Below, piece after piece: positions 7,425 through 22,040 of a stretch of 22,040 nucleotides of DNA; the stretch's first letter is position 1, and each line of letters opens with the position of its first letter. The stretch lies in the IMG/VR virus record IMGVR_UViG_3300025127_000326, positions 1 to 22,040 of that record; one strand, given 5' to 3'. Origin of the DNA: a virus. The notes beneath the pieces were generated by a model, which did no database searches, had not been told where the DNA came from, and worked only from the letters and a program-made list of their open reading frames with translations. Made by a program: the position numbers and the translations under genes.

Positions 7425-7588
7425 AAGACATGGTAGAAAGATCATTTATTGGGGTGCTAGGATCGGGAGCAGGTCTAGCCCTAGCAGGAACAGACCAAGT
7501 GCTATCTGTGGTGGCATCGGCATTTACTGTGGTCTTCATGAGTCTTTCTATTTTAAAAATATTAAAGGAGATTAGAGACAAGAAATGA
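7421..7588 (+). CDS. Small membrane protein, possible holin or antiholin
   Basis: This is 55 residues from the GTG at 7421, or 52 from the ATG at 7430. A short charged N-terminus is followed by an almost continuous hydrophobic stretch (about residues 9-47, including GVLGSGAGLALAG and VVASAFTVVFMSLSILKIL), enough for one long or two short membrane helices. The end is a basic cytoplasmic-type tail (KEIRDKK). The GTG overlaps the preceding stop and the stop overlaps the ATG of the holin-like gene at 7585, which strongly supports a real gene between them. Size, topology and neighbour suggest a small holin, an antiholin or a partner of the next protein, but no family is recognised. Confidence 0.65.
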   Translation: MKDMVERSFIGVLGSGAGLALAGTDQVLSVVASAFTVVFMSLSILKILKEIRDKK

Positions 7589-7995
7589 CATCAGAGTTAG
7601 TGGCAATGCTTGGAGGTGGAGTCACGGGATTTGTAATGAAACTAATCTCAGCACAAATGAATATCCAAGCAAATGCTATTGATGCGATGATTAAGAAACA
7701 AGGAGTATCAGATGATTCCGCAGATAGAGCAGCAAAAAGAACAGGAGAAGGAGGAGCGTGGATTAGACGTTTCATTGCAATCTGTATACTTTTTTCAGTC
7801 GTATTTGCTCCCTTTGTCATGGCGTTCTTTGATATACCAGTAACCGTTGAGTCCAATAAATTAGGAGTATTAAAATTTTTAGGAATAGGAGTAGATAAAT
7901 GGAAAAACTTGGAGGGGTTCGTATTGTTGCCAGAAGTGAGGCAAGGGATGCTGGCTTTACTGGGTTTTTATTTTGGGAGCTCGCAAGTTAAATAG
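7585..7995 (+). CDS. Holin-like membrane protein (GTA_holin_3TM type)
   Basis: This 136-residue protein resembles three-helix holins (the family named for gene transfer agent release), which form pores in the inner membrane to time lysis. A weakly hydrophobic N-terminus (MTSELVAMLGGGVTGFVMKL) precedes a charged loop with Lys, Arg and Asp. A strong membrane helix then spans about residues 54-78 (RFIAICILFSVVFAPFVMAFF), and the C-terminal hydrophobic segment (MLALLGFYFG) ends close to the terminus, where this family has a 'lGlYG' motif. AAGGAG lies about 15 bases upstream. No endolysin is visible nearby, so the lysin is either elsewhere in the genome or of an unrecognised kind. Confidence 0.65.
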   Translation: MTSELVAMLGGGVTGFVMKLISAQMNIQANAIDAMIKKQGVSDDSADRAAKRTGEGGAWIRRFIAICILFSVVFAPFVMAFFDIPVTVESNKLGVLKFLGIGVDKWKNLEGFVLLPEVRQGMLALLGFYFGSSQVK

Positions 7996-8004: not shown

Positions 8005-8070
8005 ATGAACTACGGAAAACGCAAAAAATGCCCAATGGGGAAACCTATGAAAAAAGGAGGAAAGCGATAA
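8005..8070 (+). CDS. Basic micro-protein 1 (21 residues)
   Basis: The reading frame encodes a 21-residue peptide starting MNYGKRKKCPMGKPMKK; nine residues are Lys or Arg, and there is one Cys-Pro. It has a strong ribosome binding site and ends in a TAATG junction with the next micro-gene. Tiny peptides of this kind (Met, Gly, Lys and Pro rich) are seen between structural genes of marine phages as far as I recall. The function is unknown; binding to DNA or RNA is a guess from charge. Automatic gene callers would usually miss it. Confidence 0.6.
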   Translation: MNYGKRKKCPMGKPMKKGGKR

Positions 8071-8126
8071 TGGCTTACTCATACAAAAAACCAAAAGGTA
8101 AAGGCAAAGGCAGAGGAAGGAAGTAA
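8070..8126 (+). CDS. Basic micro-protein 2 (18 residues)
   Basis: The reading frame encodes MAYSYKKPKGKGKGRGRK, with eight of 18 residues basic and a Gly-Lys/Gly-Arg alternation. Its ATG overlaps the preceding stop (TAATG), and it ends six bases before the next start. The composition is protamine-like or resembles a nucleic acid-binding tail. There is no homologue I can name. Support comes from the perfect junction with its neighbours and the shared composition of the whole cassette. Confidence 0.5.
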   Translation: MAYSYKKPKGKGKGRGRK

Positions 8127-8132
8127 TTAGTT

Positions 8133-8315
8133 ATGGGAATGAACGTAAAGCACTATTCTAAAGACGGTAAGGAGCACAAGGGCGGCTACCACAAAATGCC
8201 TGATGGAAAATTGCATTCTGGAAAAACGCATTCCCGTTCTTCTAAGCCATTGTATCATTACGGAGAGTTGTCTAAATCTGCTCAAAATAAAGCTAGAAAG
8301 TCTTGGAGGGTATAA
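8133..8315 (+). CDS. Basic mini-protein 3 (60 residues)
   Basis: This protein is rich in Lys, His, Gly and Ser, with a repeated 'Gly-Lys-x-His' pattern (DGKEHKGGYHKMPDGKLHSGKTH) and no Cys. The motif HYSKDGKEHKGGYHKMPDG looks like a beta-hairpin with two His that could bind metal or nucleic acid. GGAAGG lies 14-19 bases before the ATG, and the stop overlaps the next ATG. The C-terminus is helical and basic (KSAQNKARKSWRV). The function is unknown. Its place suggests a small virion or DNA-associated protein. Confidence 0.65.
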   Translation: MGMNVKHYSKDGKEHKGGYHKMPDGKLHSGKTHSRSSKPLYHYGELSKSAQNKARKSWRV

Positions 8316-8488
8316 TGCCAAAGAAAAAAGCTAAGAGCGGAGGAAAAATTTGCTCAGAGGGAAAGGCTTGGGCCAGAAGGACGTTTGACACGTACCCTTC
8401 CGCTTACGCTAACTTGGCTGCATCTAAGTATTGTAAAGACCCTAACTACGCTAAGAAGTCTAAGGGAGGAAAAAGGAAAGGACGCTAG
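8315..8488 (+). CDS. Basic mini-protein 4 with a YPSAYAN motif (57 residues)
   Basis: The core WARRTFDTYPSAYANLAASK followed by YCKDPNY matches a small-protein family I associate with marine phages and some algal viruses, in which a Trp-Ala, a Phe-Asp-x-Tyr-Pro-Ser-Ala-Tyr and a Lys-Tyr-Cys-Lys-Asp are conserved. The two Cys (one in KICSEG, one in KYCKDP) could pair or bind metal. Lys/Arg-rich termini flank the core. The true start is the ATG at 8315 (TAATG); an in-frame TTG at 8303 is less likely. GGAGG lies six bases upstream. I know of no characterised function for this family. Confidence 0.7.
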   Translation: MPKKKAKSGGKICSEGKAWARRTFDTYPSAYANLAASKYCKDPNYAKKSKGGKRKGR

Positions 8489-8736
8489 TGGCTCAACTTA
8501 AACAGTGGTTAAAGCAAGACTGGGTAAGGATAGGTACGGATGGATCTATCAAGGGCAAGTGTGGCACTTCTGCTAATAAGAAGAGGCCGGACAGGTGCTT
8601 ACCTAGACGCAAAGCTATAAGTCTGACTAAGGCTGAACGAGCTGCCACTGCAAAGAAGAAGAAAAGAGCAGGAGCAACCGGGCAAACAGTTGTAGCTAAC
8701 ACACCCAAAGCAAAGGTTAGAAGTGGCAATAGATAA
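8488..8736 (+). CDS. Basic mini-protein 5, DUF5872-like (82 residues)
   Basis: The core WVRIGTDGSIKGKCGTS, then KKRPDRCLPRRKAISLTKAE and AATAKKKKRAG, resembles small proteins of marine phages and algal viruses in the neighbourhood of DUF5872. That layout has a Trp-Val start, two Cys about 13 residues apart, and a 'Leu-Thr-Lys-x-Glu-Arg' helix followed by a Lys-rich tail. The start is a GTG that overlaps the preceding stop (TAGTG). The charge and the paired Cys suggest a small zinc- or disulphide-stabilised nucleic acid-binding domain. The biochemical role is unknown. Confidence 0.7.
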   Translation: MAQLKQWLKQDWVRIGTDGSIKGKCGTSANKKRPDRCLPRRKAISLTKAERAATAKKKKRAGATGQTVVANTPKAKVRSGNR

Positions 8737-8971
8737 GAAAAAAATGAAGTGCAACAAGCCCCGCAGAGAAGTGTCTGGCGGGAAGAAGTTTGTCGTGAAA
8801 GCTTGTCAGGGTGGTAAGGAAAAAATTGTACGCTTTGGTGATGCTAACATGAGCATCAAAAAGAATAACCCGGCACGTAAGAAAAGCTATTGTGCTAGGT
8901 CGGGTGGAATAAAGGGTAAGAGTAATAAACTGTCTGCTAACTACTGGAGCAGGAGAGCTTGGAATTGTTAA
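8723..8971 (+). CDS. Basic mini-protein 6 with a RFGDANMSIKK motif (82 residues)
   Basis: The core KIVRFGDANMSIKKNNPARKK and a C-terminal KLSANYWSRRAWNC match a small-protein family I recall from marine phages and algal viruses, where 'RFGD.N' and 'ARYWS' are conserved. It has four Cys and many Lys/Arg. A GTG at 8723 overlaps the preceding gene by 14 bases; an ATG at 8744 would also be possible and would shorten it by seven residues. It ends directly before the nozzle ATG at 8972. Members of this kind are often found beside the two preceding families, so the three may work together. The function is unknown. Confidence 0.7.
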   Translation: MAIDKKKMKCNKPRREVSGGKKFVVKACQGGKEKIVRFGDANMSIKKNNPARKKSYCARSGGIKGKSNKLSANYWSRRAWNC

Positions 8972-11143
8972 ATGGCTAGATATGACACATATGGGCAGGC
9001 CGATGATCGGGTTGTAGAAGATTTGGACCAAGGTTTTCTAGGCTTTAACAACAAGCTTAGACCAGACCTTTTGAAGGCTGGCACTCTTTCTGAATCTAAT
9101 AATGGTCGCATGGATTTGAACGGAGAGTGGCAACCAAGAAAGGGTATGGAAATATTCTCCACTCCGTTTAGTCCTTCTGTGTTTAAGTTGCCATTCAGAT
9201 TACATGACAGTCTTCCATCTGTTTCTAGTTACAATAGATCTTCGGAGACCTTTACAGTTAACTTTAGTGGAGTTCATGGGATCACCACTGGAGACATTGT
9301 AAACTTAAGCGGATTGAGCACTACGGGAACTGTCGATCCAAACGGAAACCACTCTTGCACAGCCTCAAGCACTACCCAGATACAGATTACAATAACTGGA
9401 TTAGATGCCGCTCCTTCAGGAACACTAACTGTTACCGGACCTAAGATAGACTCTTCTACATCTAGTTCTATTCACGCATCTTGCGAGTTCTCCGATCCAA
9501 ACAATGCGGCTACGTCTTACATAGCAGCTGTAGGAACACAAACTACAATACTGGTAAAAACTTCAGACAGTGGAGCAACAACAGTTACTCTAACTTACCC
9601 AGCCGGGGAAACGGTTCCAGAGGGGTCTAATGTAGTGCAGGTTTTCAATAAGCTTTTTATCTTCAGGAAAGGGAAGATAGCTTTGCAGTGGGATGGGGAC
9701 ATTAGCACCACTACATTTTCTTTGGTTTCAAATGGAGCCTACACCCAACCTACACCCATATCAATTACCGATCTTGATTTTGCATCAGGGATAGCAACAG
9801 CTACAGTTTCTAGCACAAGTGCTTTGTTGGTTGGAGATGTTCTTACGGTAACAACTGCTGGCACTTCGGGCTATGCTGTCGGGGACACTGTAAGGGTTAG
9901 GGAGGTTACCAACTCAACAACTTTTACATTTGCCACCGACAAAGCAGATGCAACTAACAAAACTGCAACTGTTGAAAAGGCCATATCTATAGGTCTTGGG
10001 TTTAGTCACATGCCAGCTCCTGAGTTCGGTGTACCACATCAACGTAGGTTGGTAGTGCCATATCAGTTTGATATTACTGGTTCCTCTGGGTCTGCTACAA
10101 TCACAGACAGAAACATTTTAGACGAGGCTATATTCTCGGATATACTTGACCAAAACACCTATGATAGAGTTTACGGACAATTTAGATTTAATGCTGGCGA
10201 GTCTGATTTCATTGTGGGCTTTCACTCTTTCTCAGATGACCAACTAGTTGTCTTCAACCGAAACAGCATACACACTGTAAAGAATAGTTTAGACTTGGGA
10301 AGCAGCGTGTCTCAAGTTATTACAAGCGACATAGGATGCTTGGCTAGAAATAGCATACAGCAGATCGGAAACAAACTTATGTTCCTATCTGACAATGGAG
10401 TGTACGCACTGGACTTCGTTGATCTTTACAATCTGAGGGGGCAGGACGTACCATTGTCTTCTTCCATCCAAGGAACTATTTCAAGGATAAACAAGGATCA
10501 TGCAGACAAAGCTGTTTCTGCATACTTTGACAACAGGTATTACATTGCTGTTCCACTAGATAATTCTACCACAAACAACGCCCTTCTGATTTACAATTTT
10601 CTTAATCAACAATGGGAGTCGCTAGACTCTATATCCGATAATGATTGGGAATATACCCATTTGTTGGTTGGTGGATCTGGGGACAAGAGAGGTGTTTACG
10701 TTGTAAACAGAACTGGTGCTGTTCATAAGTACGAGGAGCGATCAGATGACTCTGATAGATTCATAACCATTCTTGGTGAATCATCAAAAACATCTATCGT
10801 CTCTGCATCGGCTGTAACTAGGATGTTTACAGTAGGATCTATAGACCGGAAGAAATGGAACAATTTTGAGCTTCATTTACAGTCTTCCGAAAACAATGTC
10901 TCTAATGCAAACTTGGAGGCAATAACAGAGAATATTGATGGTACTATTGATCTTGGATCTGTTTCTCAGCTAAACGGGCAAGAGCTTGCTATAGATGAGG
11001 ATGTGTCACTTAGAGGAAGATTTGGTAATAAACGAGCATACGGTTTACAATTTAAACTAACAACAACAAAGGGAAGACCTAGACTGAGAGCACTAAAAGT
11101 TGCAGGAGCTGTAACCTTCAGGAGCTTACAAAAGGCAGAATAA
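8972..11143 (+). CDS. Tail nozzle/hub protein, P22 gp10/T7 gp12-like
   Basis: This 723-residue protein would form the short tail tube or nozzle that closes the head and opens at injection. The central and C-terminal part has beta-propeller-type blades typical of podovirus nozzle proteins (packaged-DNA stabilisation family): DDQLVVFNRNSIHTVKNSL and IGNKLMFLSDNGVYAL, then 'YYIAVPLD...NALLIYNFLNQQWES'. These occur at about residues 425-560. The length agrees with T7 gp12 (794) and related proteins. Two Ig-like insertions (about residues 80-170 and 260-340) carry repeated 'VGDVLTVTT/GDTVRVREV' strands and may be extra surface domains. The start directly follows the last basic mini-protein. Confidence 0.75.
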   Translation: MARYDTYGQADDRVVEDLDQGFLGFNNKLRPDLLKAGTLSESNNGRMDLNGEWQPRKGMEIFSTPFSPSVFKLPFRLHDSLPSVSSYNRSSETFTVNFSGVHGITTGDIVNLSGLSTTGTVDPNGNHSCTASSTTQIQITITGLDAAPSGTLTVTGPKIDSSTSSSIHASCEFSDPNNAATSYIAAVGTQTTILVKTSDSGATTVTLTYPAGETVPEGSNVVQVFNKLFIFRKGKIALQWDGDISTTTFSLVSNGAYTQPTPISITDLDFASGIATATVSSTSALLVGDVLTVTTAGTSGYAVGDTVRVREVTNSTTFTFATDKADATNKTATVEKAISIGLGFSHMPAPEFGVPHQRRLVVPYQFDITGSSGSATITDRNILDEAIFSDILDQNTYDRVYGQFRFNAGESDFIVGFHSFSDDQLVVFNRNSIHTVKNSLDLGSSVSQVITSDIGCLARNSIQQIGNKLMFLSDNGVYALDFVDLYNLRGQDVPLSSSIQGTISRINKDHADKAVSAYFDNRYYIAVPLDNSTTNNALLIYNFLNQQWESLDSISDNDWEYTHLLVGGSGDKRGVYVVNRTGAVHKYEERSDDSDRFITILGESSKTSIVSASAVTRMFTVGSIDRKKWNNFELHLQSSENNVSNANLEAITENIDGTIDLGSVSQLNGQELAIDEDVSLRGRFGNKRAYGLQFKLTTTKGRPRLRALKVAGAVTFRSLQKAE

Positions 11144-20987: not shown

Positions 20988-21294
20988 AATATTCCTCTCG
21001 TTGTATTTTAGTTTCAAGGAGAGCCAGAGCCCTCCACGCCACAGCTACATAGTCCTCCTCTAGGAGGTGTCGCATAAGGCAGTCATGGTGATCGTTAGAT
21101 ATGTTTGGTTCCCAGTGAAGAGGTTCAAGGGGATCGCAATGTTTCTCATTGCCAGCATAGGATTGCCGAGCCACTGCTGCAATGGCATTTGGGAAAGGGG
21201 ACAGTACCCCAGAATAAATGGGCCACTTTTTTCTTTCATGGCTCTCTTCGGGAATCAGTTTCACTCTGTGCTGTGGATTGGATCTGAAAATCAT
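20974..21294 (-). CDS. dATP/dGTP diphosphohydrolase-like protein (DUF5664, MazG-related)
   Basis: The sequence resembles the phage family called DUF5664 or dATP/dGTP diphosphohydrolase: SHERKKWPIYSGVLSPFPNA, AIAAVARQSYAGNEKH, PLHWEP, NDHHDCLMRHLLEEDYVAVA, then WRALALLE. This all-helical fold is related to MazG-type nucleotide pyrophosphohydrolases, which hydrolyse (d)NTPs to (d)NMP and pyrophosphate using acidic residues and Mg2+. It is 106 residues long, shorter than the members I recall, and the usual 'Asp-x-Asp-Gly-x-x-His' stretch between 'RHL' and 'AWRALA' is reduced to a few residues. It probably acts in the cytoplasm on the nucleotide pool during infection. Its start overlaps the preceding stop (ATGA). 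Confidence 0.7.
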   Translation of the reverse strand: MIFRSNPQHRVKLIPEESHERKKWPIYSGVLSPFPNAIAAVARQSYAGNEKHCDPLEPLHWEPNISNDHHDCLMRHLLEEDYVAVAWRALALLETKIQREEYYGPE

Positions 21295-21746
21295 AGCTCT
21301 ACAAATTTAACTAGGTTCATTGGCGACATATAGAATGATTGCACCATATCTTCATAGCGTGAATCTTTTTTAGTTTCACAATACCAGCTCTTGTGTGAGC
21401 TTCCCATTACTACGGCTGCATGGGTTTCGTTTTTGTTTAGGTAATAGTATCGGTATGGTTTTGGTTTGGCTCTTTCAAATGAATGCTTGGCACACACAAT
21501 AAACTTAGAACCGAAAGGCCAGTCACGTCTTCCGGTAAAATCAACCCCTAACTTTTTCACCTCAACCCTTTGCCCAACATATAAGTCTCCGTCATCAGCA
21601 TACTCCTTCCACTCCTCATGTGATGGAGCGACAAAGGTTGGTGGTATGTTCACCGGATAACCCATTGAGCTGATGTAGTTTGCTACCTTCCATACTGGCC
21701 CGTGACTTTTGGCTAGGTGCTTTTTAAATCTTTCATTGTCGTTCAT
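21291..21746 (-). CDS. PD-(D/E)XK nuclease-like hypothetical protein
   Basis: This 151-residue protein contains DDGDLYVGQRVEVKKL, in which Asp54 is followed eight residues later by Glu62-Val63-Lys64. This D...ExK arrangement, with strands on both sides and a later FGSKFIVCAKHSFE strand-helix, is the signature of the PD-(D/E)XK nuclease fold. Phage proteins with 'DGD...VEVK...DFT...WPF' occur beside DNA-metabolism genes and are usually annotated as hypothetical. Possible roles are host DNA degradation, recombination or Holliday junction cleavage. The ATG overlaps the stop of the HNH gene, and the stop overlaps the diphosphohydrolase-like start. Catalysis is inferred from the motif only. Confidence 0.6.
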   Translation of the reverse strand: MNDNERFKKHLAKSHGPVWKVANYISSMGYPVNIPPTFVAPSHEEWKEYADDGDLYVGQRVEVKKLGVDFTGRRDWPFGSKFIVCAKHSFERAKPKPYRYYYLNKNETHAAVVMGSSHKSWYCETKKDSRYEDMVQSFYMSPMNLVKFVEL

Positions 21747-22040
21747 TTCTTTTTTCTCTTTGCGTTCTCTTCCTTTGTCTTGGCCTTGTGTGCTTCCTTG
21801 CTAACTGCCTGCAAGTTTTCTTTTCCGCAGAACAATCTAGGAAGAAGCTCATTCCAATTGTATCCAAGCCACTTAGTTTTGCGTCCCCACTTCTCTGGGA
21901 TTACGGGGTCGATGTGATCTACCTGCATATCCTTTGCCGGGAAAAGCTCCTTGGTAATAGCACAGCGATACATCTTCCGCATCCTGCCAGTCTTGGGGTT
22001 CTTCTGACTCTCAACAAATGCTTCGTTAAGGGTCTGATAT
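21743..22040 (-). CDS. HNH endonuclease-like protein, 5' end outside the window
   Basis: The reading frame is open on the minus strand to the window edge, so the gene continues beyond 22040; the first Met in the window is at 21982. From that Met, RCAITKELFPAKDMQVDHID has the Asp22-His23 of an HNH core, LFCGKENLQ supplies the Asn, and EAHKAKTKEE supplies the last His (about 65). The 20 residues upstream of that Met (NPKTGR and so on) fit the usual start of this phage HNH family. The paired zinc Cys positions are mostly changed (Cys-x2-Thr and Ser-x2-Ala instead of Cys-x2-Cys), so metal binding outside the active site may be lost. The C-terminal tail is Lys-rich. It could be a free-standing homing-type nuclease or one linked to packaging or replication. 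Confidence 0.7.
   Translation of the reverse strand, partial: YQTLNEAFVESQKNPKTGRMRKMYRCAITKELFPAKDMQVDHIDPVIPEKWGRKTKWLGYNWNELLPRLFCGKENLQAVSKEAHKAKTKEENAKRKKK

Follow-up and report, generated by a model that had tools for sequence, protein, structure and literature searches.

The window analysed here, a 22,040-base virus record that is apparently a fragment, comes from a tailed phage whose major capsid protein is of the SU10 type. Between a membrane-protein-like gene and the tail nozzle gene, it carries six consecutive genes for small basic proteins (A–F), which are probably packaged in the head with the DNA, because the domains of three of them recur in virion proteins or fused to a head maturation protease. 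The cassette is best read as "exploded", with modules standing free that in other phages appear to be strung together in virion proteins. D, E, and F belong to families already present in databases without assigned function. The fusions and the virion-recorded relatives give the Tlr6F/DUF5754 family of F a concrete candidate site, the head interior, and also point to cultured phages in which a head-interior role is testable. A limited search of the literature, confined to open-access articles in PMC, found no report that connects either Tlr6F/DUF5754 or DUF5872 with head proteases or with virion proteins.

All six frames proposed in the initial annotation are present on the plus strand, with lengths of 21, 18, 60, 57, 82, and 82 residues. 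A (8005..8070) opens the cassette with the basic peptide MNYGKRKKCPMGKPMKKGGKR and has AGGAG 6 nt ahead of its ATG, while B (8070..8126) encodes the basic peptide MAYSYKKPKGKGKGRGRK behind the Shine–Dalgarno (SD) sequence AAGGAGG. C (8133..8315) is a His/Lys-rich protein that is absent from some relatives. D (8315..8488) contains the motif ICSEGKAWARRTF..YPSAYAN and matches phrog_27331 (1.2e-23), E (8488..8736) has a conserved W, W, C, and C and matches phrog_23735 (5.5e-22), and F (8723..8971) carries the motifs RKKSYCARS and YWSRRAW and matches phrog_7595 (2.9e-14); none of these three PHROGs has an assigned function. The stop codon TAA of F directly abuts the ATG of the gene for the nozzle or head-closure-like protein (8972..11143, plus strand), which matches phrog_3287 (1.1e-13) and phrog_578, head closure Hc3 (2.3e-8). 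On the other side, the plus-strand gene at 7585..7995, previously labeled a holin, encodes a membrane-protein-like product whose sole match is phrog_38283, a PHROG without assigned function.

The tight coupling described for the cassette holds for A–B and C–D (TAATG) and for D–E (TAGTG), each with a 1-nt overlap, as well as for E–F with its 14-nt overlap, but B and C are separated by a gap of 6 nt. The high content of Lys and Arg is borne out by values of 43, 44, 23, 30, 28, and 29 percent in A–F, and the corresponding net charges are +9, +8, +10, +14, +19, and +20, whereas the seven other genes in the comparison range from about −26 to +6. Cys occurs, as had been noted, in four of the six proteins (one in A, two each in D and E, four in F). 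The ribosome binding site that had been ranked among the strongest in the window was, if anything, understated: five of the six best SD matches among 22 genes belong to the cassette, the longest being that of B, while A, C, D, and E, with 5 nt, are level with the gene at 1356. High protein output is suggested because the SD matches of A–E rank at the top of these 22 genes.

The frames are conserved as proteins. Pooled independent pairs of relatives, defined by a nozzle at least 75% identical, yield dN/dS values of 0.19 (A, from 26 distinct sequences), 0.24 (B), 0.14 (C), 0.03 (D), 0.11 (E), and 0.07 (F), compared with 0.12 for the nozzle, with dN slightly lowered throughout by the choice of the relatives' ORFs by protein similarity. 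One-sided Fisher p-values for purifying selection range from 1.4e-7 for B, the weakest case, to 1e-76 for D. Third-codon positions hold most substitutions, and no in-frame stops occur in the relatives' versions of the frames. Absence of the frames from relatives, or dN/dS near 1, had been named beforehand as grounds for doubting the genes; instead, the frames are kept and dN/dS stays between 0.03 and 0.24. That they are spurious ORFs in a purine-rich stretch is therefore highly improbable, even if A and B are very short and of low complexity. Judged by the purifying selection seen in every one of them, by their SD sites, and by their recurrence across many contigs, the frames are real genes, and for C–F an artefact is effectively excluded. 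Mini-genes of 18–60 codons, which are easily overlooked by annotation, are strongly conserved in this marine phage lineage.

Gene content was compared in 27 close relatives, each a distinct locus that extends 1,150 bases or more 5′ of the nozzle. F is found by its motif in all 27, D in 26, E in 25, A and C in 23 each, and B in 15, and the stop of F lies at distance 0 from the nozzle start in 27/27. Optional mini-genes of the SPAQKRIAAVAPPRKKITGADF, HAGQAKTLR, and CGC..C types are gained and lost among the relatives, and D, E, and F each come in two clearly distinct sequence forms that occupy the same slot. D and E are found as a pair in 76 of 77 loci seeded with D and in 70 of 72 seeded with E, numbers that do not represent 149 independent cases, as 148 of the 149 loci chain together via shared neighbors and a count of independent lineages failed. 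The pair also occurs in other lineages, in phages that are cultured or named (HTVC106P, HTVC027P, HTVC203P, HTVC023P, P-SCSP2, C72C1, and C75C1), and relatives of C lie near an E homolog in the Roseobacter phages CRP-902 and CRP-207. Pelagibacter phage HTVC106P has D, E, and F, and CRP-902 has C, E, and F. By its gene content, the cassette is thus modular. The idea of a single functional unit fits the near-obligate D–E pair and the fixed position of F beside the nozzle gene, but not A, B, C, and the extra mini-genes, which vary among relatives.

A comparable arrangement is present in C75C1 (OQ984151.1, CDS0041-0048), at the same site ahead of a nozzle/head-closure protein 38% identical to that of the window. 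Like the window, C75C1 has D and E homologs in order, further basic mini-genes, and a similar membrane-like protein; it differs in the presence of a DUF6321 mini-protein in the cassette, in the placement of the membrane-like gene within it, and in the remaining order and content. The C-terminus of this internal product (L002:10062-10451) is similar to that of the membrane-like protein at 7585-7995, whose gene precedes the cassette in the window.

The initial annotation had also recognized known but uncharacterized marine phage and algal virus families, and these can now be named: D and E relate to DUF5872 (PF19197) and F to DUF5754/Tlr6F. The D protein of C72C1 matches positions 1–39 of DUF5872 with 28.8 bits (cut-off 27.5), whereas related E proteins match positions 53–112, with 53.3 bits at 55–112 for E of P-SCSP2. 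D and E of the window themselves have no Pfam match and do not reach the curated cut-off of DUF5872, and family HMMs tie them to the DUF5872-matching relatives. D and E therefore look like counterparts of the N-terminal and the C-terminal half of DUF5872, respectively. Both halves lie in one profile in DUF5872, but in the window they are separate genes with a 1-nt overlap, and no single ORF matching both HMMs was found among the loci scanned; for this reason, D and E together are described, at the level of sequence, as a split relative of DUF5872 and not as a member. We infer that the two would fold or act together. The AF2 model of E has a pLDDT of 74, and neither D nor E nor F had a credible hit in PDB sequence searches. 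The PF19197 profile had no match in five T4-like records, but its control had none either, so this absence carries no information.

F belongs, by its family profile, with DUF5754/Tlr6F (PF19058), which is matched by 11 of 40 aligned members of the F family with a best E-value of 3.1e-12; F of the window itself scores 3.2e-4 and 21.1 bits, under the curated cut-off of 27.4. Tlr6F/DUF5754 is described as present in almost every Polinton-like virus, conserved also in several virophages, in many giant viruses, and in some phages, and as having no known function (PMC4642659). Against the DUF6321 profile (PF19846), the complete F of the window reaches 0.053 and 14.6 bits, below the cut-off of 28.5, while its C-terminal motif alone aligns with DUF6321 over 34 columns at an hhalign probability of 94.6 percent. 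The AF2 model of F (pLDDT 83, pTM 0.71) consists of two strands followed by two helices. In Foldseek, it matches an ICP1 protein with a TM score of 0.77 and 1.4 Å over 71 columns, the C-terminal region of the ICP1 protease having the same predicted fold. An XkdF-annotated protein is matched as well, and weaker matches are to proteins of Tunisvirus and other giant viruses. Comparison of the F model with the PDB by Foldseek and VIA-align gave no E-value below 1 and no Z-score above 2.2, and no nucleic-acid-binding fold can be named.

Fusions link the F domain to head maturation. In ICP1 (ORF125), it forms the C-terminal part of an XkdF-type head maturation protease (Peptidase_S78_2), whereas it precedes Peptidase_S78_2 in Vibrio phage 1.101.O and Aeromonas phage PhAER-3; further fusions occur in viral contigs and in one metagenome-assembled genome. 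In ICP1 and 1.101.O, the fused gene sits between the genes for the portal and the major head protein. Unlike ICP1 ORF125, F of the window is a free 82-aa protein with no protease attached, and hence is not itself an S78 protease. No protease was identified among the C75C1 genes scanned, and the connection with a protease may therefore not hold for this lineage. In Methylophilales phage Melnitz, the F domain terminates a 650-aa cytidylyltransferase protein. These architectures mark F as a mobile domain that has been joined both to head maturation proteases and to a cytidylyltransferase. The "DNA methyltransferase" label of phrog_1530 was rejected as a lead, because its members here consist of the F domain and an S78_2 protease; the label looks wrong for L313:3425-4261, L316:3249-4415, and L317:2252-3142.

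Domain relatives of the cassette proteins are also found in virion proteins. S-SCSM1_29 (QFG06285.1) of cyanophage S-SCSM1, a protein of 517 aa encoded near terL, is a "virion protein" according to its GenBank record. It comprises an E-like region (3.3e-5, a weak match), a D-like region (5.6e-24) that matches the alternative D form of the window relatives, and a C-terminal DUF6321 (1.4e-24). Relatives of D, of E, and of the C-terminal motif of F are hence, as judged by these matches, combined in a single cyanophage protein whose record places it in the virion. T4-GC119 of S-SM1 (SSM1_115) has the same regions, again with a weak E match (0.018). Both proteins are encoded beside terminase genes, but they differ from the cassette in being single chains of 495–517 aa in T4-like phages, with DUF6321 in place of F itself. 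DUF6321 is also carried by gp137 of S-CREM2, encoded between terminase genes, for which four peptides are listed in the virion proteome and in which the D and E regions are absent. As described above for C75C1, DUF6321 can likewise be a stand-alone cassette member. Domains of F, D, or E were expected in the virion-protein cluster 89-97 of S-SCSM1, but none was found there, the match lying elsewhere in the genome in S-SCSM1_29; F itself did not turn up in the genome of either S-SM1 or S-SCSM1. Virions of S-SM1, S-SCSM1, and S-CREM2 were found to contain cytidylyltransferase or NMNAT proteins (PMC3037559, PMC9602691, PMC10665884), which does not imply that these proteins carry F, and the virion proteomics papers caution that abundant proteins can carry over. 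Another protein recorded as a virion protein in S-SCSM1, protein 93 (L358:31627-31836), is small and basic, with 69 aa and a DUF3008.

These observations lead us to a model that we hold with moderate confidence. Strong translation, presumably late in infection, would supply the basic mini-proteins in quantity; they would enter the procapsid and be retained in the head beside the packaged DNA, bound to this DNA and/or to an internal partner, e.g., the scaffold or portal. The head location is predicted from the relatives, and the stand-alone forms of the window phage would be packaged as well. Their charge suggests that the proteins bind DNA and neutralize it, and the same property is consistent with the DNA condensation put forward initially, a role that would be histone-like or protamine-like. 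Of the earlier proposals, that of packaged peptides has gained from the fusion of the F domain to head proteases and from the related domains carried by proteins that are recorded as virion proteins or were detected in virions. This gain concerns D, E, and F, whereas for A, B, and C a shared head role is suggested by operon, charge, and selection. A wider and rather doubtful extension would be that DUF5872, DUF5754/Tlr6F, and DUF6321 form one head-interior toolkit common to tailed phages, Polinton-like viruses, and giant viruses, used as domain strings or as free mini-proteins, in which the task of F would be to direct proteins to the procapsid interior or to keep them there.

The fusion of the F domain to head maturation proteases in both domain orders would also suit assembly cofactors that attach to the scaffold, portal, or protease of the procapsid and then leave or are degraded before maturation, as would the proximity to genes for scaffold, capsid, and terminase in HTVC027P, P-SCSP2, and CRP-3. 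We regard this as unlikely, given that related domains occur in proteins that are recorded for mature virions or were detected in them. If packaged, the proteins might also be delivered with the DNA to act early against host DNA, RNA, or defence. The variable and mosaic cassette content would agree with such injected effectors, and two neighborhoods point the same way: in Roseobacter phage CRP-901 (L320:2483-4301), the F gene lies directly 5′ of the gene for a protein of 519 aa that carries a PBECR5 nuclease domain, and in Pelagibacter phage Kolga (L326:4040-6679), F is close to a Mu-F head protein that is similar to zinc metallopeptidases at its C-terminus. However, D, E, and F are among the best-conserved proteins here (dN/dS 0.03–0.11), unlike typical arms-race genes, which makes this reading somewhat less likely still.

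Late nucleic-acid binders that stay unpackaged in the cell, with related domains in virion proteins being incidental, would account for the strong basic charge and for the occurrence of the same families, in some phages, away from capsid genes and near replication or nucleotide-metabolism genes. The repeated fusion to head proteins and to virion-detected proteins argues against such a role, and we consider it quite improbable. Retention in the head thus remains our preferred reading.

In its working, the proposed retention resembles that of the T4 internal head proteins, small proteins located in the head interior (PMC5694885). The likeness is confined to this, and no homology to A–F was found or is claimed; unlike the T4 proteins, A–F have a direct short basic start, and neither a targeting sequence nor a cleavage site is evident by eye. 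Several T4-like marine phage proteins (L358:28820-30049, L314:3405-3722, L324:2351-4303, and L371:41302-42015), two of which are reported in virions, start with MKSFLQFLKEA, MKKFKQYIDE, MKKFSEIIEA, and MQTFSMFFSEDA, and these starts could be capsid targeting sequences. MKKFKQYIDE-like starts, which we take to resemble the T4 capsid targeting sequence, are seen in F of C48C1 and in other T4-like proteins. Capsid targeting of this kind was dropped as an explanation for the window, where no such start is visible in A–F. At the right end of the window, two frames lie on the minus strand (21291-22039), of which that at 21743-21982 appears HNH-like by eye.
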